23,158 nt of DNA from Prevotella sp. (GTDB lineage Bacteria; Bacteroidota; Bacteroidia; Bacteroidales; Bacteroidaceae). The first letter of the stretch is position 1. Each line of letters opens with the position of its first letter. Location of the stretch: assembly GCA_022732315.1 (NCBI GenBank), contig JAIJUV010000022.1, positions 1-23,158 of the forward strand, given 5' to 3'. Under the pieces are notes generated by a model. That model was given only the letters and a program-made list of their open reading frames with translations, was not told the origin of the DNA and ran no database searches. Both the position numbers and the translations under genes were made by a program. Positions 1,221-23,158 of the stretch are shown here, piece by piece.

Positions 1221-1226
1221 TTTGCT

Positions 1227-1270
1227 TTGAATTATCTTGCTTGAATTTATCTTGCTTGAATTTATCTTGC
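1227..1270 (-). repeat. Three tandem copies of the upstream gene's 3' end
   Basis: Read on the minus strand, GCAAGATAAATTCAA occurs at 1256-1270 and 1241-1255, followed by a 14-nt variant at 1227-1240. The first copy includes the last codons and the TAA (1262-1264) of the membrane 4Fe-4S gene. The array fills nearly the whole gap before the oxyR ATG at 1220. Confidence 0.9.
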
Positions 1271-1840
1271 TTTGAGTTTACATATCAGCTGTGTCATGTT
1301 GCCCATAGGACAGAACACGCACCAGGTTCTTGGACGATAGATAATGGTGAGCAGAACGCCCACAATCAGCGAGGTGAGCATGATGCCATAGAGACCGAAG
1401 GCAAACTGTGCCTTCCATGGCTCAATCTCTACCGGGTAAGCCCAATGCCATGGCACGTTGAAGGTCCATAGCAGGTGGATGGTCTGATGGAGATTTTCTG
1501 TGCCCTTTGCCACCATTGTGGTAAGGATGATCATCTGGATAAAGAAGAACATGAAGAACAGGAGGAAGCCATGGCGGAACCATTTAGACGAGAGCCATCT
1601 TGGTGCCACCTTCTTGCGCGACCATCCCAGGGTGTTTCCTATTTGCAGGAAGAGTTGTCCTCGTCCACAATAGTTGTTGCAATATCCCTTTCCGCCTCCG
1701 AATATGGTCATGAGCAGCGGAATCAGAAAACAGATGACTCCGAGCCATGCGAACACGATATTGAAGAATCCGAGGGTGAAATAGGTGGCAGATACGAGCC
1801 ACAGGTAATCACTCCATTTCTTATTTTTCTGTTTTGCCAT
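1262..1840 (-). CDS. Membrane-bound 4Fe-4S protein (NapH/YccM-like, Fer4_5 type)
   Basis: The start is set at the ATG at 1840 (192 aa); three codons earlier there is only a TTG. Three or four hydrophobic segments are visible, at about residues 15-48, 90-110 and 145-168. Cysteine motifs follow the first segment (CNNYCGRGQLF) and the last (CVFCPMGNMTQLIC). This layout fits Fer4_5 proteins of the NapH/YccM group, which pass electrons at the inner membrane. The first motif is shorter than the usual CxxxCP cluster site. It lies 19 nt after the ferredoxin gene and is followed by oxyR after a repeat-filled gap. Its electron partner is probably the adjacent ferredoxin; the physiological acceptor is unknown. 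Confidence 0.75.
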   Translation of the reverse strand: MAKQKNKKWSDYLWLVSATYFTLGFFNIVFAWLGVICFLIPLLMTIFGGGKGYCNNYCGRGQLFLQIGNTLGWSRKKVAPRWLSSKWFRHGFLLFFMFFFIQMIILTTMVAKGTENLHQTIHLLWTFNVPWHWAYPVEIEPWKAQFAFGLYGIMLTSLIVGVLLTIIYRPRTWCVFCPMGNMTQLICKLKAR

Positions 1841-1859
1841 ACGAATCAATTTGATGAAA

Positions 1860-2060
1860 TTAAACGGGTTGTCTTAAAACTTTATGGATTACTCCTGCCG
1901 GACAGTTTTTCTCGCAGATGCCGCAGCCTATGCACTTCTCCTCATCTATCTGGGCATAGCATCCCTTGTAGATGCTGATGGCATCCTTAGGACATACTTT
2001 CACGCAAACGCCACATGCCACGCAGCGGTTTTGCTCGTTAATTGCTTTATACTTAGCCAT
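1860..2060 (-). CDS. 2[4Fe-4S] ferredoxin
   Basis: This 66-aa protein has two complete cluster motifs, CVACGVCVKVCP near residue 13 and CIGCGICEKNCP near residue 43, as in clostridial-type ferredoxins. It would carry low-potential electrons in the cytoplasm. The ATG at 2060 is 8 nt after the stop of the cysteine-rich gene, and the next gene, a membrane 4Fe-4S protein, begins 19 nt downstream. All three are very likely cotranscribed. Length and motif spacing are normal; the redox partner cannot be read from the sequence beyond this context. Confidence 0.9.
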   Translation of the reverse strand: MAKYKAINEQNRCVACGVCVKVCPKDAISIYKGCYAQIDEEKCIGCGICEKNCPAGVIHKVLRQPV

Positions 2061-2068
2061 ATTACTGC

Positions 2069-2500
2069 TTACTTCTGAATACCTTCCTTTTCCAGTATCT
2101 CTTCCAGAAATTCAGATGCATCAGCCACGCAGAGCGGACACTCGCGAAGCACTTTTCCTGTTCCCACACCTTTCAGCAGTTTGCATTGTGTGGCACCATT
2201 GCGTTGCTTAAACTTATCCATTATCATTCTCATGCCCTTGATAGACTTCGCCTTGTCTTGTGTAGCGAGTCCAAGTACGATGCCTGCACCAACGAGGGCT
2301 CCGCAGGTTCCCTCCATATTACCCATACCTGCAGCAAAGGCATTGCCAGCGTTCTTGATGGTTTCCTCGTCCATACCGGTGAAGTCGTGGTAGGTGCAGA
2401 GCACAGCCTGTGTGCAATTATGTGAGCCACAACGTTTCTTTTCTGCTGCTATTTCTTTTCTTGTTTCCATTGTCATTTTTTTCATTGTCATTTTTTCCAT
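2069..2500 (-). CDS. C_GCAxxG_C_C family cysteine-rich redox protein
   Basis: The 143-aa protein has cysteines in the family pattern: CGSHNCTQAV (C24, C29), EGTCGALVGAG (C66) and a C-terminal CPLC pair (C121, C124), with C35 and C106 in addition. The biochemical role of the family is not well established; a redox or metal-linked role is inferred from its cysteines and iron-sulfur neighbours. The frame is open up to 2683, but that extension runs through the promoter and another gene's terminator. The start is therefore placed at 2500, about 30 nt after the TAACTTTG box; 2491, 2485, 2476 and 2470 are also in-frame ATGs, created by a 15-nt tandem repeat. First gene of the operon ending in oxyR. 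Confidence 0.8.
   Translation of the reverse strand: MEKMTMKKMTMETRKEIAAEKKRCGSHNCTQAVLCTYHDFTGMDEETIKNAGNAFAAGMGNMEGTCGALVGAGIVLGLATQDKAKSIKGMRMIMDKFKQRNGATQCKLLKGVGTGKVLRECPLCVADASEFLEEILEKEGIQK
2469..2500 (-). repeat. 15-nt tandem repeat giving five alternative ATG starts
   Basis: On the minus strand two 15-nt units of the form ATGRAAAAAATGACA are followed by a partial third (ATGGAAAC). The encoded N-terminus is MEKMTMKKMTM, five methionines in eleven residues, all in one frame. The true start could be any of them; 2470 gives the most family-like N-terminus. Confidence 0.8.
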
Positions 2501-2532
2501 TGTTTTTTTATTTGTAATTTTGATTTCGGCTG

Positions 2533-2540
2533 CAAAGTTA
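2533..2540 (-). promoter_or_regulatory. -7 promoter box of the redox operon
   Basis: TAACTTTG on the minus strand matches the Bacteroidetes -7 consensus TAnnTTTG. It lies about 33 nt before the ATG at 2500. The -33 region has no clear TTTG, which would suit a promoter that depends on an activator such as OxyR. Confidence 0.65.
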
Positions 2541-2562
2541 ATACTTTTATTATAGATAAACG

Positions 2563-2598
2563 AAAGATTCTGGCTATAAGTTGATAGATAATATCTAT
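2563..2598. promoter_or_regulatory. Candidate OxyR binding site (two motifs)
   Basis: ATAGATAATATCTAT (2584-2598) is a perfect palindrome and fits the E. coli OxyR half-site ATAGnTnnnAnCTAT at every fixed base. A weaker relative, AAAGATTCTGGCTAT (2563-2577), precedes it with a 6-nt gap; the E. coli operator uses 7. The pair lies at roughly -36 to -71 relative to a start site inferred from the TAACTTTG box at 2533-2540, where activating OxyR usually binds. OxyR is encoded in the operon this site would control. The match is seen directly; binding is inferred. Confidence 0.6.
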
Positions 2599-2599
2599 T

Positions 2600-2650
2600 G
2601 ATGATAATCAAAAAATGCCCCCTTGCTTCACAGCAAGAGGGCACAAACAC
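2600..2650 (-). repeat. Terminator cassette T (copy 1)
   Basis: These 51 bases match 5713-5763 with one mismatch (2608 versus 5721). The unit contains a complete intrinsic terminator for the minus strand plus flanks on both sides, so more than the hairpin itself has been duplicated. Confidence 0.9.
2610..2643 (-). terminator. Intrinsic terminator after the AAA+ ATPase gene
   Basis: On the minus strand TGCCCTCTTGCT pairs with AGCAAGGGGGCA (one G-U pair) across a GTGA loop, followed by six U. It sits 23 nt after the stop of the ATPase gene and separates it from the redox operon. Confidence 0.85.
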
Positions 2651-2666
2651 ACAAAGTAAAACACCG

Positions 2667-3959
2667 CTAAAATTCGAGACCATTTACCGCATAGAGCGGT
2701 ACGTTTGTAACCCAATCTTCCTGCAGATAATCATTCATGGAGATTCGATAGGCCTTCTTTGGCTGGTTGTCAGCAACAAACTGGCGCAGGCTCTTTGCCT
2801 TGACATTCGTCTCGGCTTTCACCTCCAGCGGAACAATCTCATCCTCCTCATCCTGGAGCAGGAAATCAATCTCCTGAGTACTGTTTGTCTTGGCATAATA
2901 ATAGGGTTCATACCTGAGAATGAGCTGCTGCAAAACATACTGTTCCGTCAATGCCCCTTTAAACTCGGTAAAAATACTGTTGCCAGCCACTATTGTCGCA
3001 GCCTTGAGATTAGACATCGCACCTAGAAGCCCGACATCCAGGACAAAGATCTTGAAGGCCGCCCGGTCTTCATAACTGGCAAGCGGAAGTCGGGGAGCCT
3101 TCACATTATATACCTTATATATCAGTCCGGCATCCAGCAGCCACTGCAAGGCCAACTCATACTCCCGGGCTCTTGCCCCCTCGCGCACCATTCCATAGAT
3201 AAACTTCCTGTTTTCCTTGCTCAACTGGGCGGGCAAGGATTTCCACAAATCAGTAATACGGGGAATAATCTCCGATGGAGCATGCTTCGACATATCTCTC
3301 TGATAACTGTTCAGAATGTCCTTCTGTATGGTTCTCACCTCTTTCCAGTCACGGTTCTGGCAAAAGCTCAATACGGCTTCAGGCATGCCTCCCACGTAGT
3401 AATAATACTTTAAGAGTTCTTGAAACTTGGGAGCAAACATTGTTACCATATTCCAATCCTTCGTCTGAATCAGCTGCGCCAGATTCTTCTCTCCCATAGC
3501 CATCACAAACTCGATAAAGTTCATTGGACAGAGAGAGAGAAATTCCACCTTACCCACAGGAAAAGATTCCCCCTGATGCAGTTCGATACCCAGAAGAGAA
3601 CCTGCAGCTATGACATGATAGCCCGGCGCATTCTCTGCAAAATATTTGAGAGAAGTAACAGCATGAGGGGCAGCCTGAATCTCATCCAGGAATATCAGCG
3701 TTTCGCCCTCTGTGCAGGTTACATTCGTTGCAGCCCCAATAGCTGTAAGAATTCTAGGAATATTGAAATCCTGTTCAAAGAGATTCTGCAGAATCTTCAT
3801 CTCTTCAAAGTTCACATACGCCAGCTGCTTGTAATTCTGGCGGGCAAACTCCTTCACCAGCCAAGTCTTTCCCACCTGCCTGGCACCCTCAATAATAAGA
3901 GGTTTCCGATATTGTTTATTCTTCCATTTCAGAAGTTCATCGATAGCTAATCTTTCCAT
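2667..3959 (-). CDS. AAA+ ATPase with DUF4143 / PD-(D/E)xK-like C-terminus
   Basis: The 430-aa protein has Walker A GARQVGKT (residues 25-32), Walker B LIFLDE (88-93) and the AAGSLLG sensor region (about 118-124). The C-terminal DUF4143 part ends with a nuclease-fold-like pattern, EIDFLL (D365) followed by LEVK (E379, K381). Such stand-alone ATPases are frequent in Bacteroidetes and archaea and their function is not known; a DNA-linked role is only suggested by the C-terminal fold. The start is placed at MERLAID (3959), the usual family N-terminus; a further 26 codons to 4037 run into the iterons and are unlikely to be translated. Single-gene unit, closed by its own terminator, with its promoter inside a 33-bp-spaced repeat array. 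Confidence 0.85.
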   Translation of the reverse strand: MERLAIDELLKWKNKQYRKPLIIEGARQVGKTWLVKEFARQNYKQLAYVNFEEMKILQNLFEQDFNIPRILTAIGAATNVTCTEGETLIFLDEIQAAPHAVTSLKYFAENAPGYHVIAAGSLLGIELHQGESFPVGKVEFLSLCPMNFIEFVMAMGEKNLAQLIQTKDWNMVTMFAPKFQELLKYYYYVGGMPEAVLSFCQNRDWKEVRTIQKDILNSYQRDMSKHAPSEIIPRITDLWKSLPAQLSKENRKFIYGMVREGARAREYELALQWLLDAGLIYKVYNVKAPRLPLASYEDRAAFKIFVLDVGLLGAMSNLKAATIVAGNSIFTEFKGALTEQYVLQQLILRYEPYYYAKTNSTQEIDFLLQDEEDEIVPLEVKAETNVKAKSLRQFVADNQPKKAYRISMNDYLQEDWVTNVPLYAVNGLEF

Positions 3960-3976
3960 AATCCGTATCTTAAAAT

Positions 3977-4093
3977 CACATTTTATGAGGGAATAATCAC
4001 CTGTTCTCCCACATTTTATGTGGGAATAACGCTGCAAATATACACATTTTGTGAGGGAATCCTATCATGTTTCCACACATTTTATGAGGAAAC
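3977..4093 (-). repeat. Four 18-bp iterons with exact 33-bp spacing upstream of the AAA+ ATPase
   Basis: Units related to CACATTTTATGAGGGAAT (plus strand) occupy 3977-3994, 4010-4027, 4043-4060 and 4076-4093. Start-to-start distance is 33 bp each time. The 15-bp spacers are unrelated to one another. Unit 2 with its flanks is a perfect palindrome, CCCACAT-TTT-ATGTGGG (4008-4024); the others are imperfect. The likely -7 box TATATTTG lies in the spacer between units 2 and 3, so two units are upstream of it and two would be in the leader. This is the layout of a cooperative operator, possibly for autoregulation. Confidence 0.85.
4035..4042 (-). promoter_or_regulatory. -7 promoter box of the AAA+ ATPase gene
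   Basis: TATATTTG on the minus strand fits TAnnTTTG, followed by GCAGC as in other promoters here. It sits inside the iteron array, about 75 nt before the ATG at 3959. No clear -33 element is seen; iteron 3 covers that region. Confidence 0.55.
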
Positions 4094-4141
4094 ACCCATT
4101 TTTTAACTGATTTTAAAGGATAATCTTAAAACTTAATATTT

Positions 4142-4391
4142 GTTATACATTGAGGATAATTCGCTTTTTCCAATAAAATGTTATACCTTTGCCAACTCAT
4201 AATAACTAACATACAATATCAAAATGATTTTTTATAAGACATTAGGATTGAAAAACAGCCGTATTGACGTGGCTGATGCCTTGCGAGGATTGGCAGTGGT
4301 TCAATGTCAGTTTTCAAATATCTGGCTCAAGTATCATTCCCATGGTCCTTTTGAGGGAATATGGAAGAAGCTGACCTGGATTAAGTTCTAG
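4142..4391 (+). repeat. Dispersed direct repeat R1 (copy 2)
   Basis: Second copy of the unit at 1-256, with promoter box TACCTTTG at 4184-4191 and the short ORF at 4224-4391. The left boundary, as far as copy 1 can be seen, is at 4142; to the right, similarity ends just after the stop codon. It lies between the AAA+ ATPase promoter region and the terminator of the symporter gene. Confidence 0.9.
4224..4391 (+). pseudogene. Internally deleted DUF418/YeiB-like gene, ORF intact (55 aa), copy 2
   Basis: The 55-codon ORF has the same make-up as the one at 83-256: a DUF418-like N-terminus (RIDVADALRGLAV) joined to a DUF418-like C-terminus (WLKYHSHGPFEGIWKKLTW). Compared with copy 1 it lacks 6 nt (two codons) at the junction, has five synonymous changes, two amino-acid changes (N2I and an L-to-Q after the junction) and TAG in place of TAA. 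The indel keeps the frame and both ORFs end at the same codon. This suggests recent or continuing coding constraint, although the numbers are small. No function is known. Confidence 0.6.
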
Positions 4392-4405
4392 ATATTCAAG
4401 TTTAC

Positions 4406-4455
4406 ATAAGAGAAAAAGGTGTGTCATAACTCCATGACACACCTTTTTCTCTTAT
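4406..4455. terminator. Bidirectional intrinsic terminator after the symporter gene
   Basis: Two perfect 22-nt arms (4406-4427 and 4434-4455) flank a 6-nt loop. The core GGTGTGTCAT/ATGACACACC is bordered by A5 on one side and T5 on the other, giving a U-tract in both directions. The symporter stop codon (4452-4454) is within the right arm. Confidence 0.9.
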
Positions 4456-5636
4456 TTATCCTTTCTGAATATCTTATCAACGACAACGGCGATGGCACCA
4501 TCGCCCGTTACATTGCAGGCGGTGCCGAAACTGTCCATCGCAATATAGAGGGCTATCATAAGCGCCTGCATATCAGCATTGAACCCCAATACTGAGGCTA
4601 GCGGACCGAGTGCTGCCATCACAGCTCCTCCTGGAACTCCCGGAGCTGCTACCATGCAGATGGCGAGCACGAAGATGAAGTTGAGGAAGAGGGGGAGATT
4701 GCACGGCAAACCATTGATGAGGCAGATGGTAAGCGCACAGCAGGTAATCTTCATCATTGAACCTGAGAGGTGGATGGTGGCACAGAGTGGAATGGTGAAG
4801 CCGGCAATGCCATCGGTGACGCCGTTTTTCAAGGTCTGCTTCAGTGTAACCGGAATGGTGGCTGCAGACGATGAGGTGCCCAGTGCCGTGAAGTAGGCTG
4901 GCAACATGTTGAGCAACAGCTTGAACGGATTCTTATGGGTTAAGCCTCCAGCCAACAGATATTCGTAAAGTAATATTACGATATGGAGCACGAGAATCAC
5001 GAGGATAATCTGTGCGAAGACAAGCAGAATATGGTATGCTTCGCCCGAGAAAGTCATGCCCAGGAAGATGCCGAAGATGTAAAGGGGCAGGAGAGGGATG
5101 ATGACTTTGGCGATGACACCGGAAACGATTTCCTTGAATTCCTGAAAAACGTTCTGCATGGTGCGGCTGCCTTTGTGCGCAATGCCCAGTCCGGCGATGA
5201 ACGAGAAGACGAGGGCACTCATCACATCTACCATGGCAGGTATCTTGATTTCGAAGAAGGGTTTGAGTTCTTCTGCCTTATCTACTGCCACATGGGCAGA
5301 GTTGGCAATCATGTGAGGGAAGAGCGCCGATCCTGTGCCATAGGCTAGCAGACCTGCCAGGATGGTGTCGGCAAAGGCGATGCCCACGGTGGCAAGGAGG
5401 AGCTTTCCGGCACCGTGACCGATGTCGGCAATGGCTGGTGTAACGAGACCGATGATGATGAGCGGTATCATAAAGCCCAGGAATTGGCTGAAGATACCAT
5501 TGAAGGTGAGGAATGCTCTGACGGCCGCTTCATTGAAGAAATTGCCGAAAACTACACCCAAGATGATGGCAATGATGATTCTTGCCAAAAGTGGTGTTTT
5601 GACTTTTGCCAAAAGTGGCATTTTGATTCTTTTCAT
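4452..5636 (-). CDS. Dicarboxylate/amino acid:cation symporter (DAACS family)
   Basis: The 394-aa inner-membrane protein carries the serine-rich re-entrant loop GTSSSAATIP (253-262), the CATIHLSGS segment (285-293), APGVPGG (331-337) and the transport core MDSFGTACNVTGDG (367-380, with D368, N375 and D379). These are hallmarks of GltP/DctA/SstT-type Na+- or H+-coupled carriers. The exact substrate (glutamate, aspartate, serine/threonine or C4-dicarboxylate) cannot be assigned. The frame is open to 5780, but that extension crosses a terminator and a promoter, so the start is set at 5636. The N-terminus holds an 8-residue in-frame duplication, KMPLLAKV then KTPLLARI. Single-gene unit with its own promoter and terminator. 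Confidence 0.9.
   Translation of the reverse strand: MKRIKMPLLAKVKTPLLARIIIAIILGVVFGNFFNEAAVRAFLTFNGIFSQFLGFMIPLIIIGLVTPAIADIGHGAGKLLLATVGIAFADTILAGLLAYGTGSALFPHMIANSAHVAVDKAEELKPFFEIKIPAMVDVMSALVFSFIAGLGIAHKGSRTMQNVFQEFKEIVSGVIAKVIIPLLPLYIFGIFLGMTFSGEAYHILLVFAQIILVILVLHIVILLYEYLLAGGLTHKNPFKLLLNMLPAYFTALGTSSSAATIPVTLKQTLKNGVTDGIAGFTIPLCATIHLSGSMMKITCCALTICLINGLPCNLPLFLNFIFVLAICMVAAPGVPGGAVMAALGPLASVLGFNADMQALMIALYIAMDSFGTACNVTGDGAIAVVVDKIFRKDK
5582..5618 (-). repeat. 24-nt in-frame duplication at the symporter N-terminus
   Basis: TTGCCAAAAGTGG (plus strand) occurs at 5582-5594 and 5606-5618, 24 nt apart, with similar bases after each. On the coding strand it encodes PLLA twice, within KMPLLAKV and KTPLLARI. 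The spacing is exactly eight codons. Confidence 0.85.
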
Positions 5637-5660
5637 ATTCGTAGTGTTGCTTTTTGATTG

Positions 5661-5691
5661 CAAAGGTACGCTTTTTCTTACTAAAATCCAA
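5661..5691 (-). promoter_or_regulatory. Promoter of the symporter gene
   Basis: On the minus strand TTG (5691-5689), a 20-nt spacer and TACCTTTG (5668-5661) match the Bacteroidetes -33/-7 promoter. The ATG at 5636 follows about 25 nt after the -7 box. This is the main evidence for rejecting a longer N-terminus. Confidence 0.75.
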
Positions 5692-5712
5692 GGCTTTCGT
5701 TGTTTTTTAGAT

Positions 5713-5763
5713 GATGATAAGCAAAAAATGCCCCCTTGCTTCACAGCAAGAGGGCACAAACAC
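5713..5763 (-). repeat. Terminator cassette T (copy 2)
   Basis: This is the same 51-bp unit as 2600-2650, with one mismatch. Here it lies between the PIG-L fusion gene and the promoter of the symporter. Confidence 0.9.
5723..5756 (-). terminator. Intrinsic terminator of the ROK-nagB-PIG-L operon
   Basis: The hairpin and U6 tract are identical to those at 2610-2643. It stands 118 nt after the PIG-L fusion stop codon. The stretch between (5764-5874) is AT-rich and holds a 10-bp inverted repeat, ATAGTTGATA (5797-5806) with TATCAACTAT (5839-5848), but no gene. Confidence 0.8.
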
Positions 5764-5874
5764 CAATTTTTCTCGTACATTTAAATGCTTAAATGAATAG
5801 TTGATATAAAAGTTAGAGGATTAAATTCCTTGAATATTTATCAACTATAAGATATTTATATACCTATAAATTGC

Positions 5875-7866
5875 TTATAGCGGAACATACTCCACGAAAG
5901 CCTCCATAGCCTCGTAGCAAGCCAGGCCTAACTCATCATAGAGCTGGGCGGTGCCACGGTTGCGGTCCTCGGCACGCTGCCAGAACAAACGCTCATCGTT
6001 GCCCAGGAATGGGGCACTCTCCATCTGTGACTGATGCTTCAGAATAGAGTTACGCTTTGCTCTTAACTCCTCTGGGCTCAATGGAACACACATCTCGATG
6101 TTCTCAATCTCCCATTCTGCCCATGCACCACGATACATCCAGATGCGGCAGTCCTTCAGCCACTCTGCGCCAGCCTTCTTCTCCTCGTCGATGGCTGCGA
6201 GAACAGCGTCGGTACACTTCTTGTGGGTGCCGTGTGGGTCAGCCAGGTCACCAGCTACATAAATCTGATGAGGCTTCACCTCCTGCAACAAAGCTCTAAC
6301 AATCTCAACATCCTTCTCTGTCATCGGCAACTTCTCAATCTTACCGCTCTCATAGAATGGCAAGTCGAGGAAGTGAACACGGTTCAGAGGAATCTGGTTG
6401 TAGGTACATGCTGTGCGAGCCTCGCCACGACGAATCAAGCCCTTGATGGTCAGGATGTCGCGGGTGTCGAAGTCGCCCTCCTTCTTGTTGGCGAAGAATT
6501 CCTTGATCTCCTTGTACTTCTTAGAGATAACGCTGTCCTTAGAATCAGCGAAGATCTGGTTGAAGCCGTTGATGAAGTGCATGAATCTTGTCACCTCCTC
6601 GTCGCCTACAGCGATGTTGCCCGATGTCTCGTAAGCCACGTGAACCTCGTGCTGCTGCTGAACCAGGCGGCGGATGGTGCCACCCATAGAGATAACGTCA
6701 TCGTCTGGATGAGGAGAGAAGACAATCACCTTCTTAGGGAATGGCTTCGCACGCTCTGGGCGATAGGTATCGTCAGCGTTTGGCTTGCCGCCAGGCCATC
6801 CTGTGATGGTGTGCTGCAAGTCGTTGAAAATCTTGATGTTGGCATTGTATGCAGAGCCGTAGAGAGCCAGAAGTTCGCTCAAGCCGTTCTCGTTGTAATC
6901 CTTGTTGGTCAACTTCAGGATAGGCTTGTGCAGTTTCTGGCAGAGCCATACCAGTGCCGAACGCACCTGCTTGTCGGTCCACTCGCAGTTGGTTACGAGC
7001 CATGGATGCTTGATGCGGGTGAGGTTGGAAGCTGCGCTCAGGTCGAGGATGACGTGTGCATTAGGATGAGTCTGGAGGAAGCTTGCTGGCAATGTGTCAG
7101 TGATGTTTCCTTCTACCACCTTCTGCATGATGTCAGCCTTTTCGTCGCCCCAAGCCGTGAGATATACTTTCTTGGCAGAGAGCAGGGTAGCGATACCCAT
7201 GGTGAGCGAGCAAGGAGGAATCTGCTCCTTGGTGCCGAAACTGTTCTCCATCTCCTCTCGGGATGTGTTGCCGATGAGGATGAGACGGGTCATCGACTGG
7301 ATGCCGGAACCAGGTTCGTTGGCTGCGATGTTACCCATTCTTCCGATGCCCAGCAGAGCCACGTCGAGACCGCCGAAGGTCTTGATGCGCTGCTCGTAGA
7401 GGCGGCATGTATCCTGCACTGCGTCTTGAGCCACGCTGCCGTCGAGCGTGAAGATATTCTGTGGGTCGATGTCAATATGGTCGAGGAAGCGCTCCTTCAG
7501 CTGGTTGATGCTCTTCAGCGAGCTTTCCTTGGCAATAGGATAGTACTCGTAGGCGTTGAAAACAACCACGTTTCTGAAACTGAGCTGCTTAGCCTCGCAT
7601 CTTTTCTGCAATTCATTGTAGATAGGTGTGAGCGAAAGTCCTGTGCCCAATGCCATTACATAATACTTACCCTCATGCTGGGCTGCCTTGATTTCCTTCT
7701 CTATCTGGTCAGCTACATGAGCTGCACCCTCCATGGAAGAGGCGAAGATGTCGGTGTGAATTTTCTCCATTCTGGAGATTTCTGAATACTCAACGGTAGT
7801 CTTTGGCTTGTAGTAAGCCAAAGGTACCTTGTTGAGTACAATCTGTGAACTTAGATTGAGTCTCAT
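5875..7866 (-). CDS. NagB-like pseudoenzyme domain fused to a PIG-L (LmbE) deacetylase
   Basis: The 663-aa protein has two parts. Residues about 30-290 resemble glucosamine-6-phosphate deaminase, but the catalytic residues are changed: the FNMDEY motif reads FNAYEY (D72 equivalent is Y106) and [11 protein letters not shown] reads GRMGNIAANEP (D141 is M177, H143 is N179; E148 is kept as E184). Deaminase activity is unlikely. Residues about 378-663 are a PIG-L deacetylase with the metal motif PHPDDD (385-390) and a later DPHGTH (543-548), apparently intact. PIG-L enzymes remove acetyl groups from GlcNAc-containing substrates. Such fusions occur in Bacteroidetes and are often annotated simply as NagB. 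It follows nagB by 87 nt in the same operon. A role in GlcNAc-6-P or GlcNAc-conjugate deacetylation is inferred. Confidence 0.85.
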   Translation of the reverse strand: MRLNLSSQIVLNKVPLAYYKPKTTVEYSEISRMEKIHTDIFASSMEGAAHVADQIEKEIKAAQHEGKYYVMALGTGLSLTPIYNELQKRCEAKQLSFRNVVVFNAYEYYPIAKESSLKSINQLKERFLDHIDIDPQNIFTLDGSVAQDAVQDTCRLYEQRIKTFGGLDVALLGIGRMGNIAANEPGSGIQSMTRLILIGNTSREEMENSFGTKEQIPPCSLTMGIATLLSAKKVYLTAWGDEKADIMQKVVEGNITDTLPASFLQTHPNAHVILDLSAASNLTRIKHPWLVTNCEWTDKQVRSALVWLCQKLHKPILKLTNKDYNENGLSELLALYGSAYNANIKIFNDLQHTITGWPGGKPNADDTYRPERAKPFPKKVIVFSPHPDDDVISMGGTIRRLVQQQHEVHVAYETSGNIAVGDEEVTRFMHFINGFNQIFADSKDSVISKKYKEIKEFFANKKEGDFDTRDILTIKGLIRRGEARTACTYNQIPLNRVHFLDLPFYESGKIEKLPMTEKDVEIVRALLQEVKPHQIYVAGDLADPHGTHKKCTDAVLAAIDEEKKAGAEWLKDCRIWMYRGAWAEWEIENIEMCVPLSPEELRAKRNSILKHQSQMESAPFLGNDERLFWQRAEDRNRGTAQLYDELGLACYEAMEAFVEYVPL

Positions 7867-7876
7867 TATTCTGGTT

Positions 7877-7966
7877 TTTAAAGGTTGTAGGGATGTTCCT
7901 TATAATTCTGTAATTCTGTTTTTTTAAAGGTTGTCCCTATAAAATGTTATCATTTACAGGTTGTCC
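7877..7966 (-). repeat. Three copies of the nagB 3' end in the nagB/PIG-L gap
   Basis: The last nagB bases with the stop codon (7953-7966; minus-strand GGACAACCTGTAAA) recur as GGACAACCTTTAAA at 7923-7936 and in a diverged form at 7877-7890. The second and third share about 22 nt including flanks (an ATTCTG-T-rich-TAAAGGTTGT core on the plus strand). Offsets are 30 and 46 nt. Confidence 0.8.
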
Positions 7967-8745
7967 TTCTCGATGTCCTTGAAGTACTTGTAGGTGCTAA
8001 CCTTCAACTCGTCGGTAGCGCTCTCATCGCAAACGATGATGCCGTGCTGGTGAGTCTGAAGCGCACTGATGGTCCAAGCCTGTGTAACAGGACCCTCGAT
8101 AGCTGCCTGGAGTGCACGAGCCTTGTTGTGGCCGTTGCAGAGAATCATGACCTCTCTGGCTGCCATCACGGTACCTACACCCACTGTGAGAGCAGTAGCA
8201 GGCACAGCGTTCATGTCGCCGCCGAAGAAGCGTGAGTTGGCGATGCGGGTATCTGTGGTCAGAGTCTTAACTCGTGTACGTGATGTGAGAGAAGAGAAAG
8301 GCTCGTTGAAAGCGATGTGGCCGTCAGGACCGATACCGCCGATGAAGAGGTCGATGCCGCCTGCTTCCTCGATCATCTGCTCATAGTGAGCGCACTCTGC
8401 CTCGAGATCCTCTGCGTTTCCGTTGAGGATATGGATGTTCTCCTTAGGACAGTCGATGTGGTCGAAGAGGTTGTGAGCCATGAAAGAATGGTAGCTCTCT
8501 GGGTGAGACTCTGGCAAGCCTACATACTCGTCCATGTTGAAGGTGAGTACATGCTTGAATGAAATCTCGCCAGCCTTTACAGCCTTAACGATTTCTGCAT
8601 ACATGCCTACAGGTGATGAACCTGTTGGCAAACCCAAAACGAATGGTTTTTCTGCTGTTGGTTGGAAGGCTTTGATGGTCTCCACAACGTGACGAGCTGC
8701 CCAGCGAGCCAACTCCTCGTAATTCTTTTCGATGATTACACGCAT
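7954..8745 (-). CDS. nagB: Glucosamine-6-phosphate deaminase NagB
   Basis: The 263-aa enzyme converts glucosamine-6-phosphate to fructose-6-phosphate and ammonia, the last step that brings sialic acid and GlcNAc into glycolysis. Motifs are complete and fall at E. coli numbering: phosphate loop [11 protein letters not shown] (about 39-49), FNMDEY with D72, and [11 protein letters not shown] with D141, H143 and E148. Length equals that of typical hexameric NagB (about 266). It lies between the ROK regulator gene (106 nt upstream) and the NagB-like/PIG-L fusion (87 nt downstream), all on the minus strand. Both gaps contain duplicated gene ends. Cytoplasmic. Confidence 0.96.
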
Positions 8746-8794
8746 AGTTGTTTATGTTTTTATTAATAAATAGTTGAAAAGTTTATATTCTATT

Positions 8795-8855
8795 TCTTTT
8801 TCTTTTCTGAAAATCAGCTTCTTTTCTGAGAATCTTTTTCTTTTCTGAAAATCAG
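8795..8855 (-). repeat. Exact 23-nt duplication of the ROK gene 3' end
   Basis: Positions 8833-8855, which include the ROK stop codon (8852-8854), are identical over 23 nt to 8795-8817, 38 nt further downstream of the gene. A partial third copy of the TTCTTTTCTGA.AATC type lies between them (8819-8834). Confidence 0.9.
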
Positions 8856-10051
8856 TTCCCTTGCAGCATCCTGCTTCTAGCCATGAGGCAGGCGCCTATC
8901 AGCCCTGCCTGACCTTTCAGCTGTGATGTCACAATCTGTGAGTCTTCGCTCACCAGATTCAGGGAGTACTTCTTGATACCCATGCAGATAGATTGGGTGA
9001 GATAGTCTCCGGTCACCGACAGGTCTCCACCGATGACGAGCATCTTAGGGTTGAAGATATTGATGATTCCTGCAAGATTGGTTCCCAGTTCCACAGCCAT
9101 TTTCTGCAAGGCTTCGATGCTGAGCACGTCTTCTTTCCCGATGGCGTCGAGAATGTCCTGCAGGGTGAGCGGCTGGTGCTGCTTCATCACTTTTTCGGTG
9201 AGAACCGAAGTTTCTCCGTTCTTGAGCAGCTGGTTCATCTTTCTCAGCAGTGCCGAACCGGAAGCTTCGGTTTCCATGCATCCTGTTTTTCCGCAATGGC
9301 AGATGATGCCATTATTATAGATGTGCATATGTCCGATTTCTCCCGAGAAGCCCGATTCTCCCAGATAGAGTCTGCCGTCGATGATGATGCCGATGCCGAT
9401 ACCCCAGCTGATATTGACAAAGATAACGTTCTTCACGCCCTTGCTCACGCCTCTGAGGCTTTCGCCGTAGGTCATGCATCGGGTGTCATTGTCGATGCAT
9501 ACGGATAATCCCAGTTTTTCCGACAGGATTTCTGCCAGTGGCTTCTGCACGCAGGTGAAGTAATTATAGGCGCAGCCTGTGTTAGGATTCACACGTCCGC
9601 CGATACTCAGGCAGGTATTCTTAATCTGTTCCTTGGTGATGCCCGATTTTTCGATAAACTCGTTGGTGAGACTGATGAATTGCTCGAAGCATTCCATGCT
9701 GTCCTCGTAGATGAAGTCTATCTTCTGTGGTTCTGTCACCATGTTGCCGCAAAAATCGCAGATGCCGAAGGTTAGATTATCCTTTCCCGTGTCGATTCCC
9801 AGGAAGTAGCCCGAAGTAGCAATCAGGTCGTATATCTTGGGTGCTCTTTTCGAATAGTTGTCTTTCTTTCCTGTTACCTGTACCAGGCCGATGTCAATCA
9901 GCTCGTTTAGAGTCTTTGTGGTGTATGGCACGCTAACGCCTAGGCTTTTTGAGAGTTCGGCTATGGTCTGCCCGCCATATTCTATAAACTGGTTTAGGAT
10001 AGCAGTCATAGAGGCCGACCATTTTGTTTGGTTGATGATGTTCTTTAACAT
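8852..10051 (-). CDS. ROK-family transcription regulator (NagC/XylR type)
   Basis: The 399-aa protein has an N-terminal winged helix-turn-helix (about residues 15-60, TIAELSKSLGVSVPYTTKTL) followed by a ROK domain. The ROK zinc site is present: GHMHI (H241) and CHCGKTGCME (C251, C253, C258). The catalytic Asp of sugar kinases is retained (D189 in IDNDTRC), but the ATP loop reads GIDTGKDNLTF without the GGTK signature, so kinase activity is doubtful. ROK repressors usually bind a sugar or sugar phosphate. Its position, divergent from the nanT operon and first in the nagB operon, suggests it controls both in response to a GlcNAc or ManNAc derivative. Palindromic AT-rich sites are present in the shared upstream region. 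Confidence 0.9.
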   Translation of the reverse strand: MLKNIINQTKWSASMTAILNQFIEYGGQTIAELSKSLGVSVPYTTKTLNELIDIGLVQVTGKKDNYSKRAPKIYDLIATSGYFLGIDTGKDNLTFGICDFCGNMVTEPQKIDFIYEDSMECFEQFISLTNEFIEKSGITKEQIKNTCLSIGGRVNPNTGCAYNYFTCVQKPLAEILSEKLGLSVCIDNDTRCMTYGESLRGVSKGVKNVIFVNISWGIGIGIIIDGRLYLGESGFSGEIGHMHIYNNGIICHCGKTGCMETEASGSALLRKMNQLLKNGETSVLTEKVMKQHQPLTLQDILDAIGKEDVLSIEALQKMAVELGTNLAGIINIFNPKMLVIGGDLSVTGDYLTQSICMGIKKYSLNLVSEDSQIVTSQLKGQAGLIGACLMARSRMLQGN

Positions 10052-10082
10052 AAGCGTTGCCTTAATGAATGATTTAACGGTG

Positions 10083-10090
10083 CAAAGTTA
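10083..10090 (-). promoter_or_regulatory. -7 promoter box of the ROK-nagB operon
   Basis: TAACTTTG on the minus strand, 31 nt before the ATG at 10051, followed by GCACC. A clear -33 TTTG is lacking. The palindrome at 10095-10111 would lie just upstream of it, between the two promoter elements. Confidence 0.6.
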
Positions 10091-10094
10091 AATA

Positions 10095-10111
10095 AATAAA
10101 TCCATTTTATT
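10095..10111. promoter_or_regulatory. Candidate ROK operator, ROK side
   Basis: AATAAAT-CCA-TTTTATT is an inverted repeat with one mismatch, placed immediately upstream of the ROK -7 box. It resembles the AT-rich palindromes bound by NagC-type repressors. The surroundings are AT-rich, so chance occurrence is possible. Confidence 0.3.
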
Positions 10112-10318
10112 AATATTTGCTAGTTAATTAATCTAAATATTTTAAAGAAAGTGCCAATTTAAACATTTTTTGCTCTGATTTCCCCCGAATGTACCCTGGA
10201 AAGCGATGGTTGGGATACCCTTAGCCCCAAAAGCGGCTTTCTTTGTGCTATAAATGATGTATCGAGGTGCTCTATATAATATATAATAAGGTATAAGGGG
10301 TGAAACTGTCATAATAAA

Positions 10319-10338
10319 TAAATAAACTAATTTATTTA
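10319..10338. promoter_or_regulatory. Candidate ROK operator, nanT side
   Basis: TAAATAAA-CTAA-TTTATTTA is a perfect 8+8 inverted repeat, 30 bp upstream of the nanT -33 element. Its half-site resembles that of the palindrome at 10095-10111. Binding by the ROK protein is inferred only. Confidence 0.4.
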
Positions 10339-10368
10339 ATTATAATAATGAAAATAATTTCTTTAAAA

Positions 10369-10400
10369 TTTGGTTGATATTAAAAATAGTCGTATATTTG
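10369..10400 (+). promoter_or_regulatory. Promoter of the nan operon
   Basis: TTTG (10369-10372), a 20-nt spacer and TATATTTG (10393-10400) give a near-perfect Bacteroidetes promoter. Transcription would start near 10407 and leave a leader of about 50 nt before nanT. Confidence 0.85.
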
Positions 10401-10413
10401 CAGCAGAATTTCT

Positions 10414-10447
10414 AACTAACAATAATTATATAGCAAACTAACAATAA
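10414..10447 (+). repeat. Duplicated 12-nt element in the nanT leader
   Basis: AACTAACAATAA occurs at 10414-10425 and 10436-10447, 22 nt apart, in the untranslated leader. The leader is otherwise A/C-rich, without a Shine-Dalgarno site. Confidence 0.7.
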
Positions 10448-10455
10448 CAACAACA

Positions 10456-11688
10456 ATGAGAAATAGAAAGTTTTACCCTTGGTTGGTTGTTGCGCTCCTG
10501 TGGGTGGTTGCACTTCTCAACTATATGGATCGCCAGATGCTTTCAACCATGCAGGCAGAAATGAAGGTTGACATAGTGGAATTGCAGCAGGCTGAGGCCT
10601 TCGGAGCTTTGATGGCTGTCTTCCTTTGGGTGTATGGAATCGTGAGCCCGTTCGCTGGTATCGTGGCTGATAGAATCAGCCGAAAGAAATTGGTGGTGGG
10701 CAGTCTCTTCGTCTGGTCGCTGGTTACTTACCTCATGGGTTATGCTTCCAGTTTCAACCAGCTCTACATGCTCAGAGCTTTGATGGGTATCAGTGAGGCA
10801 CTCTACATCCCTTCTGCTCTCTCGCTCATTGCCGATTGGCATGAAGGCAAATCCCGCTCTCTCGCCATCGGTGTCCACATGACCGGTTTGTATGTAGGTC
10901 AGGCCATCGGCGGATTCGGTGCCACAGTGGCTGCAGCCTTCTCTTGGCATACCACTTTCCACTGGTTCGGTATCCTCGGAATCGCTTATTCCGTAGTATT
11001 GCTCCTCCTCTTGCATGATAAGGAAAAGGAGACCGTGAGTGTGGCGGCGCAGCAGGTAAAACCTGCGAAGGGCGGACTCTTCCAAGGCTTGTCGGTAGTG
11101 CTTTCTACGTGGGCTTTCTGGGTTATCCTTTTCTATTTTGCAGTACCTTCTCTCCCGGGTTGGGCAACCAAGAACTGGCTCCCTACCTTGTTTGCTGAGA
11201 ATTTGGGCATCCCAATGTCGCAGGCGGGTCCGATGTCAACCATCACCATTGCCGTATCTTCATTGATTGGTGTACTTTTCGGAGGTGTGCTTTCTGACAA
11301 GTGGGTACAGAAGAACATCCGTGGCCGTGTCTATACTAGTGCCATCGGTTTGGGTATGACCATTCCTGCGCTCTTCCTCCTCGGCTTCGGCCATAGCCTG
11401 GTAGCCATCGTAGGTGCAGGCTTGCTCTTCGGTATCGGTTACGGTATATTTGATGCCAACAATATGCCAATCCTCTGCCAGATTATCTCGGCAAAGTACA
11501 GAGCCACAGCATACGGTATCATGAACATGGTGGGCGTATTTGCCGGAGCCATGGTTACACAGGTGATGGGTAAGTGCTCTGATGGCGGCAACCTGGGCTT
11601 TGCCTTCGCCGTACTCGGCATCGTGGTGATAGCAGCACTGACTCTCCAGTTGGTCTGCCTGAAGCCAAAGACAGATAATCTGGAATAA
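10456..11688 (+). CDS. nanT: NanT-type MFS sialic acid transporter
   Basis: The 410-aa inner-membrane protein has the twelve-helix major facilitator layout. It shows NYMDRQMLS in the first helix region, the loop motif GIVADRISRKKLV (a version of G-x-x-x-D-R-x-x-R-K) after helix 2, and GVLSDKWVQ after helix 7. It is first in an operon with NanA and an AGE epimerase, as in the Bacteroides nanLET arrangement. Import of free Neu5Ac by proton symport is therefore the likely role; a hexuronate or other acid sugar cannot be excluded from sequence alone. The ATG follows a strong promoter and a 50-nt leader. Its last ~16 bases, stop and following nucleotides are duplicated 40 nt downstream. Confidence 0.85.
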   Translation: MRNRKFYPWLVVALLWVVALLNYMDRQMLSTMQAEMKVDIVELQQAEAFGALMAVFLWVYGIVSPFAGIVADRISRKKLVVGSLFVWSLVTYLMGYASSFNQLYMLRALMGISEALYIPSALSLIADWHEGKSRSLAIGVHMTGLYVGQAIGGFGATVAAAFSWHTTFHWFGILGIAYSVVLLLLLHDKEKETVSVAAQQVKPAKGGLFQGLSVVLSTWAFWVILFYFAVPSLPGWATKNWLPTLFAENLGIPMSQAGPMSTITIAVSSLIGVLFGGVLSDKWVQKNIRGRVYTSAIGLGMTIPALFLLGFGHSLVAIVGAGLLFGIGYGIFDANNMPILCQIISAKYRATAYGIMNMVGVFAGAMVTQVMGKCSDGGNLGFAFAVLGIVVIAALTLQLVCLKPKTDNLE

Positions 11689-11736
11689 GATAAAGACAGA
11701 TTTTCTTAAATAAGATAATCTGGAATAAAATAAAGA
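11673..11736 (+). repeat. Duplicated nanT 3' end
   Basis: Positions 11673-11696 (which contain the nanT stop at 11686-11688) and 11713-11736 match at 23 of 24 bases. The offset is 40 nt, not a multiple of three. Shared core: GATAATCTGGAATAA. Confidence 0.9.
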
Positions 11737-11776
11737 ATTAAGAATCATATAATTAACGTAAAAAATATTTTTGATT

Positions 11777-12694
11777 ATGGAAAAAATCATTGGACTCATT
11801 GATGCACCGTTCACTCCTTTTTATGCCAACGGTGATGTGAACTTGGAACCTATCGAGGCTTATGCCAAGATGCTTCAGAAAAACGGTCTGAAGGGCGTGT
11901 TCATCAACGGCTCTTCTGGTGAGGGTTACATGCTGACCACCGAGGAGAGAATGCTTCTCGCCGAAAGATGGGTAGCGGTGGCTCCAAAGGATTTCAAGAT
12001 TATCGTTCATGTGGGCAGCTGCTGCCTCCGTGAAAGCCGTCGCCTTGCTGAGCACGCACAGAAGTTGGGTGTTTGGGGCATCGGTTCAATGGCTCCTCCA
12101 TTCCCACATATCGGTCGCATCGAGGAACTGGTGAAGTATTGCGAGGAGATTGCTTCTGCAGCTCCAGAGCTTCCTTTCTACTACTACCACATTCCTGCTT
12201 TCAACGGTGCTTACCTGCCAATGCTCGACTTGCTGAAGGCTGTGGATGGACGCATTCCTAACTTCGCCGGTATCAAATATACCTTCGAGAGCCTCTACGA
12301 GTACAACCAGTGCCGCCTCTACAAGAACGGCAAATACGATATGCTCCATGGTCAGGATGAGACCATCCTCCCTAGCCTGGCTCAGGGTGGTGCACAGGGT
12401 GGCATCGGCGGAACTACCAACTACAATGGTAAGGAGCTGGTTGGCATCATCGAGGCTTGGAAGAACGGCGACATCGAGACAGCACGCGAGAAGCAGAACT
12501 TCGCTCAGGAGGTCATCAACGTGATCTGCCACTACCGTGGAAATATCGTGGGCGGCAAGCGCATCATGAAACTGATTGGCTTCGACCTGGGTCCTAACCG
12601 CACCCCATTCCGCAACATGACCGATGAGGAGGAGCAGGCTATGAAGAAAGAGTTGGAGGCTATCCACTTCTTCGACCGTTGCAACCAGTTCTAA
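11777..12694 (+). CDS. nanA: N-acetylneuraminate lyase NanA
   Basis: This 305-aa (beta/alpha)8 aldolase cleaves Neu5Ac to ManNAc and pyruvate. Class I features are present: GSSGE (45-49), catalytic Tyr in FYYYHIPAF (Y137) and Schiff-base Lys in FAGIKYTF (K167), near the E. coli positions Y137 and K165. Length fits the family (about 300). The ATG at 11777 is preferred over an in-frame TTG six bases earlier. Equivalent to NanL of the Bacteroides nanLET operon. Second gene of the operon, between nanT and the epimerase. Its stop region is duplicated in the following gap. Cytoplasmic. Confidence 0.95.
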   Translation: MEKIIGLIDAPFTPFYANGDVNLEPIEAYAKMLQKNGLKGVFINGSSGEGYMLTTEERMLLAERWVAVAPKDFKIIVHVGSCCLRESRRLAEHAQKLGVWGIGSMAPPFPHIGRIEELVKYCEEIASAAPELPFYYYHIPAFNGAYLPMLDLLKAVDGRIPNFAGIKYTFESLYEYNQCRLYKNGKYDMLHGQDETILPSLAQGGAQGGIGGTTNYNGKELVGIIEAWKNGDIETAREKQNFAQEVINVICHYRGNIVGGKRIMKLIGFDLGPNRTPFRNMTDEEEQAMKKELEAIHFFDRCNQF

Positions 12695-12727
12695 AAACAA
12701 GTTTGATTGTTGCAACCAGTTTTAAAA
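12678..12727 (+). repeat. Duplicated nanA 3' end
   Basis: GTTGCAACCAGTTCTAAAA (12678-12696, containing the nanA stop) recurs as GTTGCAACCAGTTTTAAAA at 12709-12727, 18 of 19 bases identical. The offset is 31 nt. Confidence 0.9.
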
Positions 12728-12761
12728 TTCAAGAATAATTATCTCCACTAAATCGATAAGA

Positions 12762-13946
12762 ATGAATATCAAGGAATATATCAAGCAGTGGGCTGAATCC
12801 TACAAGACCGATCTCACAGAGAACATCATGCCCTTCTGGATGGAGCATGGATGGGACAAGGTGAACGGTGGTGTCTATACCTGTGTGGATAGAGACGGAA
12901 GTCTGATAGACTCCACCAAGTCGGTATGGTTCCAGGGTCGATTTGCCTTCATCTGCGCTTATGCATATAATAATGTAGAGAAGAACCCGTTGTGGTTGGA
13001 AGCAGCGAAGAGCACGCTCGACTTCATCGAGAACCATTGTTTCGACGAGAACGGAAGAATGTACTTCTCCGTCACAGCTGAGGGCAAGCCATTGCGCATG
13101 CGCCGCTACGTGTTCTCTGAGACCTTCGCAGCCATTGCGATGTCAGAATATGCCCTGGCTACAGGCGACCAGAAGTATGCAGAGCGTGCCCTGCAGATTT
13201 TCAAGGACACCCAGCGTTTCCTCACCACTCCGGGCATCCTGGCTCCAAAGTTCGAGGAATCAGTGCAGTTGCAGAGCCACAGCATCATCATGATTCTCAT
13301 CAACGTGGGTTCATGCATCCGCAAGGTTATCAACGACCCTAAGCTCACCGAGCAGATTGATGAGTCAATCGCCAAACTGAAGAAGTACTTCATCCACCCA
13401 GAGTTCAAGTGTCTCCTGGAGACCGTGGGCATGAACGGTGAGTTTGTGGATACCTGTATGGGTCGCACCATCAACCCAGGCCATTGCATCGAGACTTCAT
13501 GGTTCATCATGGAAGAGGCGAAGCTGAGAGGTTGGGACAAGGAGATAACCGATATGGCACTGCAGATCTTCGACTGGTCTTGGGACTGGGGATGGGACAA
13601 GCAGTATGGCGGCATCATCAACTTCAGAGACTGCCGGAATCTTCCTGCGCAGGATTATTCACAGGATATGAAGTTCTGGTGGCCACAGACCGAAACCATC
13701 ATCGCTTCGCTCTATGCTTACCTGGCTACGGGAGACGACGAGTACATCTACAAGCACCAGCGCATCAGCGAGTGGACCTACGCCCATTTCCCAGATGCAG
13801 AGTTCGGTGAGTGGTATGGCTATCTTCACAGAGACGGAACCGTGGCACAGCCGGCAAAGGGTAATCTCTTCAAGGGTCCGTTCCACATTCCTAGAATGAT
13901 GATCAAGGCATATACATTGTGCCAGGAAATCTTGAACAAAAATTAA
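12762..13946 (+). CDS. nanE: AGE-family N-acylglucosamine 2-epimerase (NanE, renin-binding-protein type)
   Basis: This 394-aa (alpha/alpha)6-barrel protein would interconvert ManNAc and GlcNAc, the step after NanA. Characteristic AGE motifs are present: VWFQGR (R60), SHSIIM (H173), NPGHCIETSW (H241), WWPQTE (306-311) and PFHIPR (H375). H241 and H375 correspond to the two histidines thought to catalyse proton transfer. Length agrees with mammalian and cyanobacterial AGE (about 390-420). This is unlike the TIM-barrel NanE of E. coli, which acts on the 6-phosphate, and it matches Bacteroides NanE. It follows nanA and is 7 nt before the creatininase-like gene, so cotranscription is likely. Confidence 0.92.
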   Translation: MNIKEYIKQWAESYKTDLTENIMPFWMEHGWDKVNGGVYTCVDRDGSLIDSTKSVWFQGRFAFICAYAYNNVEKNPLWLEAAKSTLDFIENHCFDENGRMYFSVTAEGKPLRMRRYVFSETFAAIAMSEYALATGDQKYAERALQIFKDTQRFLTTPGILAPKFEESVQLQSHSIIMILINVGSCIRKVINDPKLTEQIDESIAKLKKYFIHPEFKCLLETVGMNGEFVDTCMGRTINPGHCIETSWFIMEEAKLRGWDKEITDMALQIFDWSWDWGWDKQYGGIINFRDCRNLPAQDYSQDMKFWWPQTETIIASLYAYLATGDDEYIYKHQRISEWTYAHFPDAEFGEWYGYLHRDGTVAQPAKGNLFKGPFHIPRMMIKAYTLCQEILNKN

Positions 13947-23021: not shown

Positions 23022-23087
23022 TATTAAAATAGAAGTTTTTTAGGTTATATATAGTTTACTGAACTTTCGCAAGTATCTCACCCACAC

Positions 23088-23158
23088 GCCCTGAAAGGGC
23101 AGAAGCTCCTAGCCCAGGGCAGCGCCCTGGGTAATGATGGATGCAAGCTTGTCGCCCT
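23088..23158. repeat. REP-like GC-rich palindromic repeat, cut by the window end
   Basis: Two hairpins lie in tandem: GCCCT-GAA-AGGGC (23088-23100) and CCCAGGGC-AGC-GCCCTGGG (23113-23131), the second a perfect 8-bp stem. Base composition differs sharply from the AT-rich sequence just before. Similar GCCCTGAAAGGGC / CAGCGCCCTGGGT sequences recur in Bacteroidetes genomes as I recall them, possibly related to REP elements. The right end is outside the window. Confidence 0.6.

Follow-up and report, generated by a model that had tools for sequence, protein, structure and literature searches.

The stretch of DNA analysed here, referred to as the window, comprises 23,158 nucleotides (positions 1 to 23,158 of contig JAIJUV010000022.1, assembly GCA_022732315.1, Prevotella sp.). 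It carries two glucosamine-isomerase-family genes, one GlcNAc 2-epimerase-family gene, one DHDPS-family gene and one GH20 gene, accompanied by genes for a ROK regulator, an MFS transporter, a creatininase-family protein, a BNR-repeat protein and a SusC/SusD pair. From this gene set we read the region as a sialic-acid or amino-sugar cluster. Positions 11400-13000 are closer to Segatella copri iA622 (92 percent identity) than to S. copri Indica (84 percent), and by this comparison the window looks like S. copri DNA. When the DNA of positions 10400-13000 and one protein were used as queries against plasmids and viral contigs, no close relatives were found, and the Rfam comparison returned no match at gathering score within the window.

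A shortened gene is present twice, at 1-260 and 4142-4395 (97 and 94 percent), and these near-identical copies flank a 4-kb segment. The shortened gene consists of the start and the end of a DUF418-family gene without its middle. The corresponding parts lie ∼960 bases apart in S. copri Indica and iA622, and in Indica they belong to a single 379-aa gene. The first copy (1-260) displays a 6-bp tandem repeat at the join.

Direct repeats are found at gene junctions of the window. A sequence-only reading had reported that the 3' ends of genes, stop codons included, recur in the following spacer at five of five same-strand junctions with gaps of 40-110 bp, and the five repeats that it described are all present. 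A sixth array, which it overlooked, lies over a gene start. The features are as follows.

1222..1272, minus strand: (a) 15-bp unit present 3.4 times, between the 4Fe-4S protein gene (stop 1262-1264) and the LysR gene (start 1220)
2464..2503, minus strand: 15-bp array of 2.7 copies over the start of the gene ending at 2069
7876..7966, minus strand: (b) gene end GGACAACCTGTAA (7954-7966), followed by two diverged copies ahead of the next gene
8800..8855, minus strand: (c) 19-bp unit present 2.9 times from the stop codon of the ROK gene on, mostly spacer
11667..11736, plus strand: (d) end of the MFS gene (stop 11686-11688), followed by a middle copy that has decayed and by one matching at 23/24 positions at offset 40
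12671..12725, plus strand: (e) terminal stretch of the DHDPS-family gene (12671-12694), repeated over 24 nt at 12702-12725

Tandem Repeats Finder resolves three of the five junction cases as plain tandem arrays (a, c and d, with units of 15, 19 and 25 bp, respectively). When the last 30 nt of each gene were scored against its own spacer, the claim of a gene-end copy stood for four junctions, where copies of 11-24 nt include the stop. At (a) the repeat extends from -11 to +25 relative to the stop with an offset of 15, and its score of 12.5 (shuffle p 0.017) is equalled in 0/201 other S. copri spacers of similar length. At (b) a 13-nt copy lies at offset 30 and the second and third copies are 46 nt apart; the score is again 12.5 (shuffle p 0.005), equalled in 0/127 length-matched S. 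copri spacers. The repeat at (d) spans -16 to +8 at offset 40, is identical at 23 of 24 positions and scores 18 (shuffle p 0.0005; 0/125 length-matched spacers), the copy adjoining the downstream gene being better kept than the middle one. At (e) it spans -17 to +2 at offset 31, reaches 24 nt if four differences are allowed and scores 17 (shuffle p 0.0005; 0/161). Each of the four differences is a C in the gene that reads T in the spacer copy, and C to T differences are the expectation of AT-ward decay. The claim fails at (c): here 23 nt occur twice without a difference, from -4 to +19 relative to the stop at offset 38, and the gene contributes only C+TGA, that is, the stop codon and one base. 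The gene-end score of 7.5 (shuffle p 0.23) is equalled in 40/105 length-matched S. copri spacers, and the junction is a real spacer array without a gene-end match.

The set of five same-strand gaps of 40-110 bp fits the open reading frames. The gene caller adds a sixth (gap 55), which has no copy (score 5.5) and which we attribute to a start called too far upstream for the gene ending at 2069. It had also been stated that the offsets are mostly not multiples of three, and this is so for 46, 38, 40 and 31; 15 and 30 are such multiples. By eye the offsets show no frame preference, and C-terminal extension as an explanation of the copies was ruled out on this ground. The array at 2464-2503 keeps the reading frame, so that the gene has several ATG codons at which it could start and its product a repetitive N-terminus.

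A broader survey covered ∼1.8 Mb of S. copri DNA (0.98 Mb of iA622 and 0.82 Mb of Indica, both genomes in part), 0.4 Mb of G136, 0.4 Mb of Phocaeicola vulgatus and further Bacteroidales loci, 78 of which entered the gene-end count. Genes were identified with a home-made caller based on hexamer usage, which over-extended some starts, and the null expectation was obtained by swapping in spacers from other junctions of similar length. The main S. copri count comprises 392 same-strand junctions with gaps of 30-149 bp at a main threshold score of at least 10.

Gene-end copies are in clear excess in S. copri: 25 of the 392 junctions harbour one, compared with 6.1 expected (P 9e-9), and the numbers are 10 vs 1.0 at a score of at least 12 and 5 vs 0.2 at a score of at least 14. 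Both genomes contribute, iA622 with 17/213 vs 3.3 and Indica with 8/179 vs 2.0. The sequence-only reading had anticipated an excess over controls; it is borne out in S. copri, and the evidence is weak in other Bacteroidales. The 78 loci yielded 9/242 vs 3.0, or 7/200 vs 4.7 with gaps of 40-149, whereas G136 gave 0/54 vs 0.8 and P. vulgatus 1/84 vs 1.8; outside S. copri the pooled figures show no clear gene-end excess (10/375 vs 6.4, P 0.11). In the same 392 S. copri junctions, the segment located 30-60 nt inside the gene is copied at the level of the controls (7 vs 5.7), and so are gene starts at a score of at least 10 (9 vs 8.8), with 3 vs 1.0 at a score of at least 12 (P 0.09). Copies of convergent gene ends are found in 3/134 cases as opposed to 25/392 co-directional ones, a difference that is not significant (Fisher 0.075).

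In the window itself, the count is 4/5 for the junction set of the sequence-only reading and 4/6 for that of the gene caller, both post hoc. Set against a species rate of 6/258 at a score of at least 12 and 16/258 at a score of at least 10, a comparison that is likewise post hoc, the window's 4/5 exceeds what this rate would give. The cluster may be due to chance, particular to the strain, or local. For nine of the 10 S. copri gene-end matches scoring at least 12, the sampled genome contains a matched 11-mer 1-4 times, and for the remaining one 10 times; by these low counts an origin as fragments of dispersed elements was ruled out for most S. copri matches. By eye, L196:14201 resembles part of a GC-rich dispersed element, and L108:6395 and L222:7629 sit in arrays with a 7-bp period. 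At other loci, the matches listed include, again by eye, copies at L003, between a gene that we take to be nanA and an epimerase gene, and at L049, between an MFS gene and a presumed nanA.

Repeats confined to the spacers are at least as common as copies of gene ends. In S. copri the first 20 nt of a spacer recur in its remainder in 38/392 junctions vs 4.3 expected, and the last 20 nt recur in 26/337 vs 3.5. Strong direct repeats were detected at 88 of 461 junctions, 63 of them spacer-internal, 20 reaching into the gene end and five on the start side. Once 7-bp multiples and dispersed words are left out, a reduced set of 20 remains, distributed as 10 internal, 8 stop-side and 2 start-side repeats, where an even spread would place 3.8 on either side. 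The coverage of these 20 peaks 10-40 nt past the stop, drops to nil beyond 30 nt into the gene and stays low around the following start. The earlier view that gene ends and stops are copied in their own right is not sustained: repeats are commoner within spacers, the array at (c) belongs to the spacer, and one of the window's gene starts carries a tandem repeat as well. Gene ends thus have no special status of their own. Gene ends may be somewhat favoured, as the stop-side figure of 8 vs 3.8 suggests.

A looser scan recovered repeats scoring at least 10.5 in 139/490 junctions, many of the weak ones being chance. When junctions of every orientation are taken, repeats scoring at least 12.5 are present in 88/428 junctions of iA622 and 62/364 of Indica, compared with 14/106 in G136, 11/177 in P. 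vulgatus and 46/495 in the other loci. At a score of at least 12, divergent spacers of 150-399 bp are not enriched in repeats in S. copri (3/93 vs 5.0), whereas those in the other Bacteroidales loci have them in 7/52 vs 1.3.

The comparison of orthologous junctions indicates that the copies are gains. Among 82 orthologous pairs drawn from the window, iA622 and Indica, 20 (junction e counted twice) have a repeat scoring at least 13 in one member only, and that member is the longer in 18/20, by a median of 45.5 bp; the median absolute difference in the 54 pairs without a repeat is 16.5 bp, and the extra length is partly ascertainment, because longer spacers have more room for repeats. The orthologue of (a) in Leyella, at L009, the only one among 80 loci where the two genes were found to be adjacent, is a 4-nt overlap (ATGA), 45 nt shorter, which corresponds to exactly three 15-bp units. 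The spacer of (b) measures 87 nt in the window and 35 nt in Indica, where there is no clear copy. A diverged copy with another middle is found at the junction orthologous to (d) in iA622, and no copy in Indica. The copy at (e) is absent from both iA622 and Indica, whose spacers are 29 and 25 nt long vs 67 nt in the window. Elsewhere, inspection by eye disclosed an exact 16-bp tandem copy with two shorter echoes at L112:1384 in iA622 and none in Indica, and three 16-bp units, the middle one decayed, at L121:11448 and also in Indica. Target-site duplication around a small insert was rejected as a source of the copies, as L112:1384 contains no insert and (a), (b) and (d) have more than two copies. 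Taken together, the 25/392 junctions and the 18/20 longer spacers uphold the part of the sequence-only reading according to which spacers lengthen by local duplication that sometimes takes in gene ends.

The repeats probably derive from short local duplications that recur in the 3' flanks of genes, are tolerated over stops and are removed near starts. The gene-end copies look like one face of a general local-duplication habit of S. copri intergenic DNA and do not look like a new functional element. Short duplication steps, mostly of 15-60 bp and tandem or near-tandem, would recur in the 3' flanks of genes. When a step crosses a stop codon, the first copy would still terminate the gene and the upstream protein would be unaltered, so that the duplication could persist; a step near the next start would alter the initiation region and mostly be lost. 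The spacer copies would later decay through point mutation. Short tandem duplication arises via replication slippage or template switching, and either may be the molecular cause here; slippage, already proposed from the sequence, fits the data. The depletion near starts may be due to selection. What is directly observed is an S. copri excess over controls, one of equal or larger size in spacers, none at starts when the main threshold is applied, and repeat-bearing spacers that are longer than their orthologues. Tolerance sits less easily with the stop-side surplus, the few copies at convergent ends, the window's 4/5, the 3 vs 1.0 at starts under the stricter score, the divergent repeats in other loci and the better-kept downstream copy at (d).

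Some of these points would follow if a duplication process, beyond mere tolerance, were aimed at the 3' ends of co-directional genes, for instance through replication or transcription trouble. The stop-side figure of 8 vs 3.8, the scarcity at convergent ends (3/134), the four of five junctions in the window and the different middles of the copies at (d) in the window and iA622 all point in this direction. Targeting of this kind nevertheless appears unlikely: spacer-internal repeats outnumber gene-end ones, the deficit at convergent ends falls short of significance, the count for the window was made post hoc, and the window also has a repeated gene start. Equally improbable is an S. copri process that would copy the last 10-25 nt of a gene, stop included, into co-directional spacers, with a preference for stops and perhaps repeatedly at one junction across strains, thereby lengthening spacers and being able to separate overlapping genes.

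It is very unlikely that the spacer copies are remnants of the 3' end of a former upstream gene variant that was replaced via recombination with a diverged strain. The iA622 copy at (d) does have TTAGAATAA in common with the Indica gene end, and three of the four codon differences at (e) are silent, but silent changes amount to 40/279 vs 43.9 expected over 88 matches, many of them by chance. Moreover, leftovers should include the segment 30-60 nt inside the gene, which is not copied (7 vs 5.7), and the exact 16-bp tandem copy at L112:1384 also tells against this origin. That the copies are retained for a function in termination, uncoupling or mRNA stability, exerted by a second stop region or by the longer spacer, is likewise very unlikely. 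At (a) the Leyella ATGA overlap is replaced by a 41-bp gap, as judged from one orthologue, and the last copy is well kept in (d) and (e); yet frame preference is lacking by eye, close relatives have altered copies or none, the window has no Rfam match at gathering score and 367/392 S. copri junctions do without such a copy. The role in coupling or mRNA stability offered earlier finds no support in the frames or in the changes, which are not mostly silent.

The local-duplication reading can be set beside known repeat systems. The long simple sequence repeats known from bacteria, among them heptamers (Mrazek et al. 2007, described in PMC4679880), are short, tandem and mostly intergenic and are thought to come from polymerase slippage. 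The spacers of S. copri iA622 resemble them in being rich in 7-bp periods (49/88 repeats), whereas the gene-end copies differ: their units measure ∼15-40 bp, occur two or three times and have a sequence of their own at each junction. Units of 5-11 nt in many copies are a feature of many other S. copri spacers and not of the window (units 15, 19 and 25; offsets 30-46). The TAACTGA direct repeats of Beggiatoaceae, Cyanobacteria and some Bacteroidetes are described in the same paper (PMC4679880) as intergenic occurrences of one fixed genome-wide word, mostly shortly ahead of start codons. The likeness lies in intergenic direct repeats that, in some of the cases described there, overlap the upstream stop codon; S. 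copri differs in that the repeated sequence varies from junction to junction and starts are avoided. Unlike a word repeated at many places of the genome, the 11-mers of the 10 S. copri gene-end matches mostly occur 1-4 times in the sampled genome.

In form the copies correspond to short tandem duplication: they are local and direct, partly in perfect tandem and adjacent or nearly so (offsets 15-46; arrays a, c and d), and exceed repeat-free relatives in length in 18/20 pairs, with some ascertainment. They depart from it in being concentrated in the gene 3' flanks of one species group and in comprising several copies separated by unrelated or decayed sequence. A literature search of titles and abstract openings returned nothing on gene-end copies in spacers. 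The data give a measurable picture of how within-operon gaps lengthen in a common gut bacterium, in which small duplications collect in 3' flanks, reach slightly over stops and avoid starts. The contrast between species, S. copri being rich and P. vulgatus poor in such repeats, makes the cause testable.

A 7-bp period characterizes 49/88 repeats in iA622 vs 12/62 in Indica. The iA622 spacers are crowded with 7-bp-period words such as AAAGTTC, GAAGAGT, TAGTGAT and their relatives at offsets of 7, 14 and 21, for example at L099 near 7066, L106 near 16855 and L108 near 6395; a stop-containing heptamer present three times places stops in all three frames. At the end of the window (23080-23158) a dispersed intergenic element begins (ACGCCCTGAAAGGGCAGAAGCT...); of its 43 match rows in the S. 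copri DNA surveyed, Indica contributes 33 and iA622 10. By eye, a terminator-like hairpin, CCCCCTTGCTTCACAGCAAGAGGG with its flanks, occurs twice in the window, at 2611-2650 and 5724-5764, preceding the regions of two unrelated minus-strand genes.
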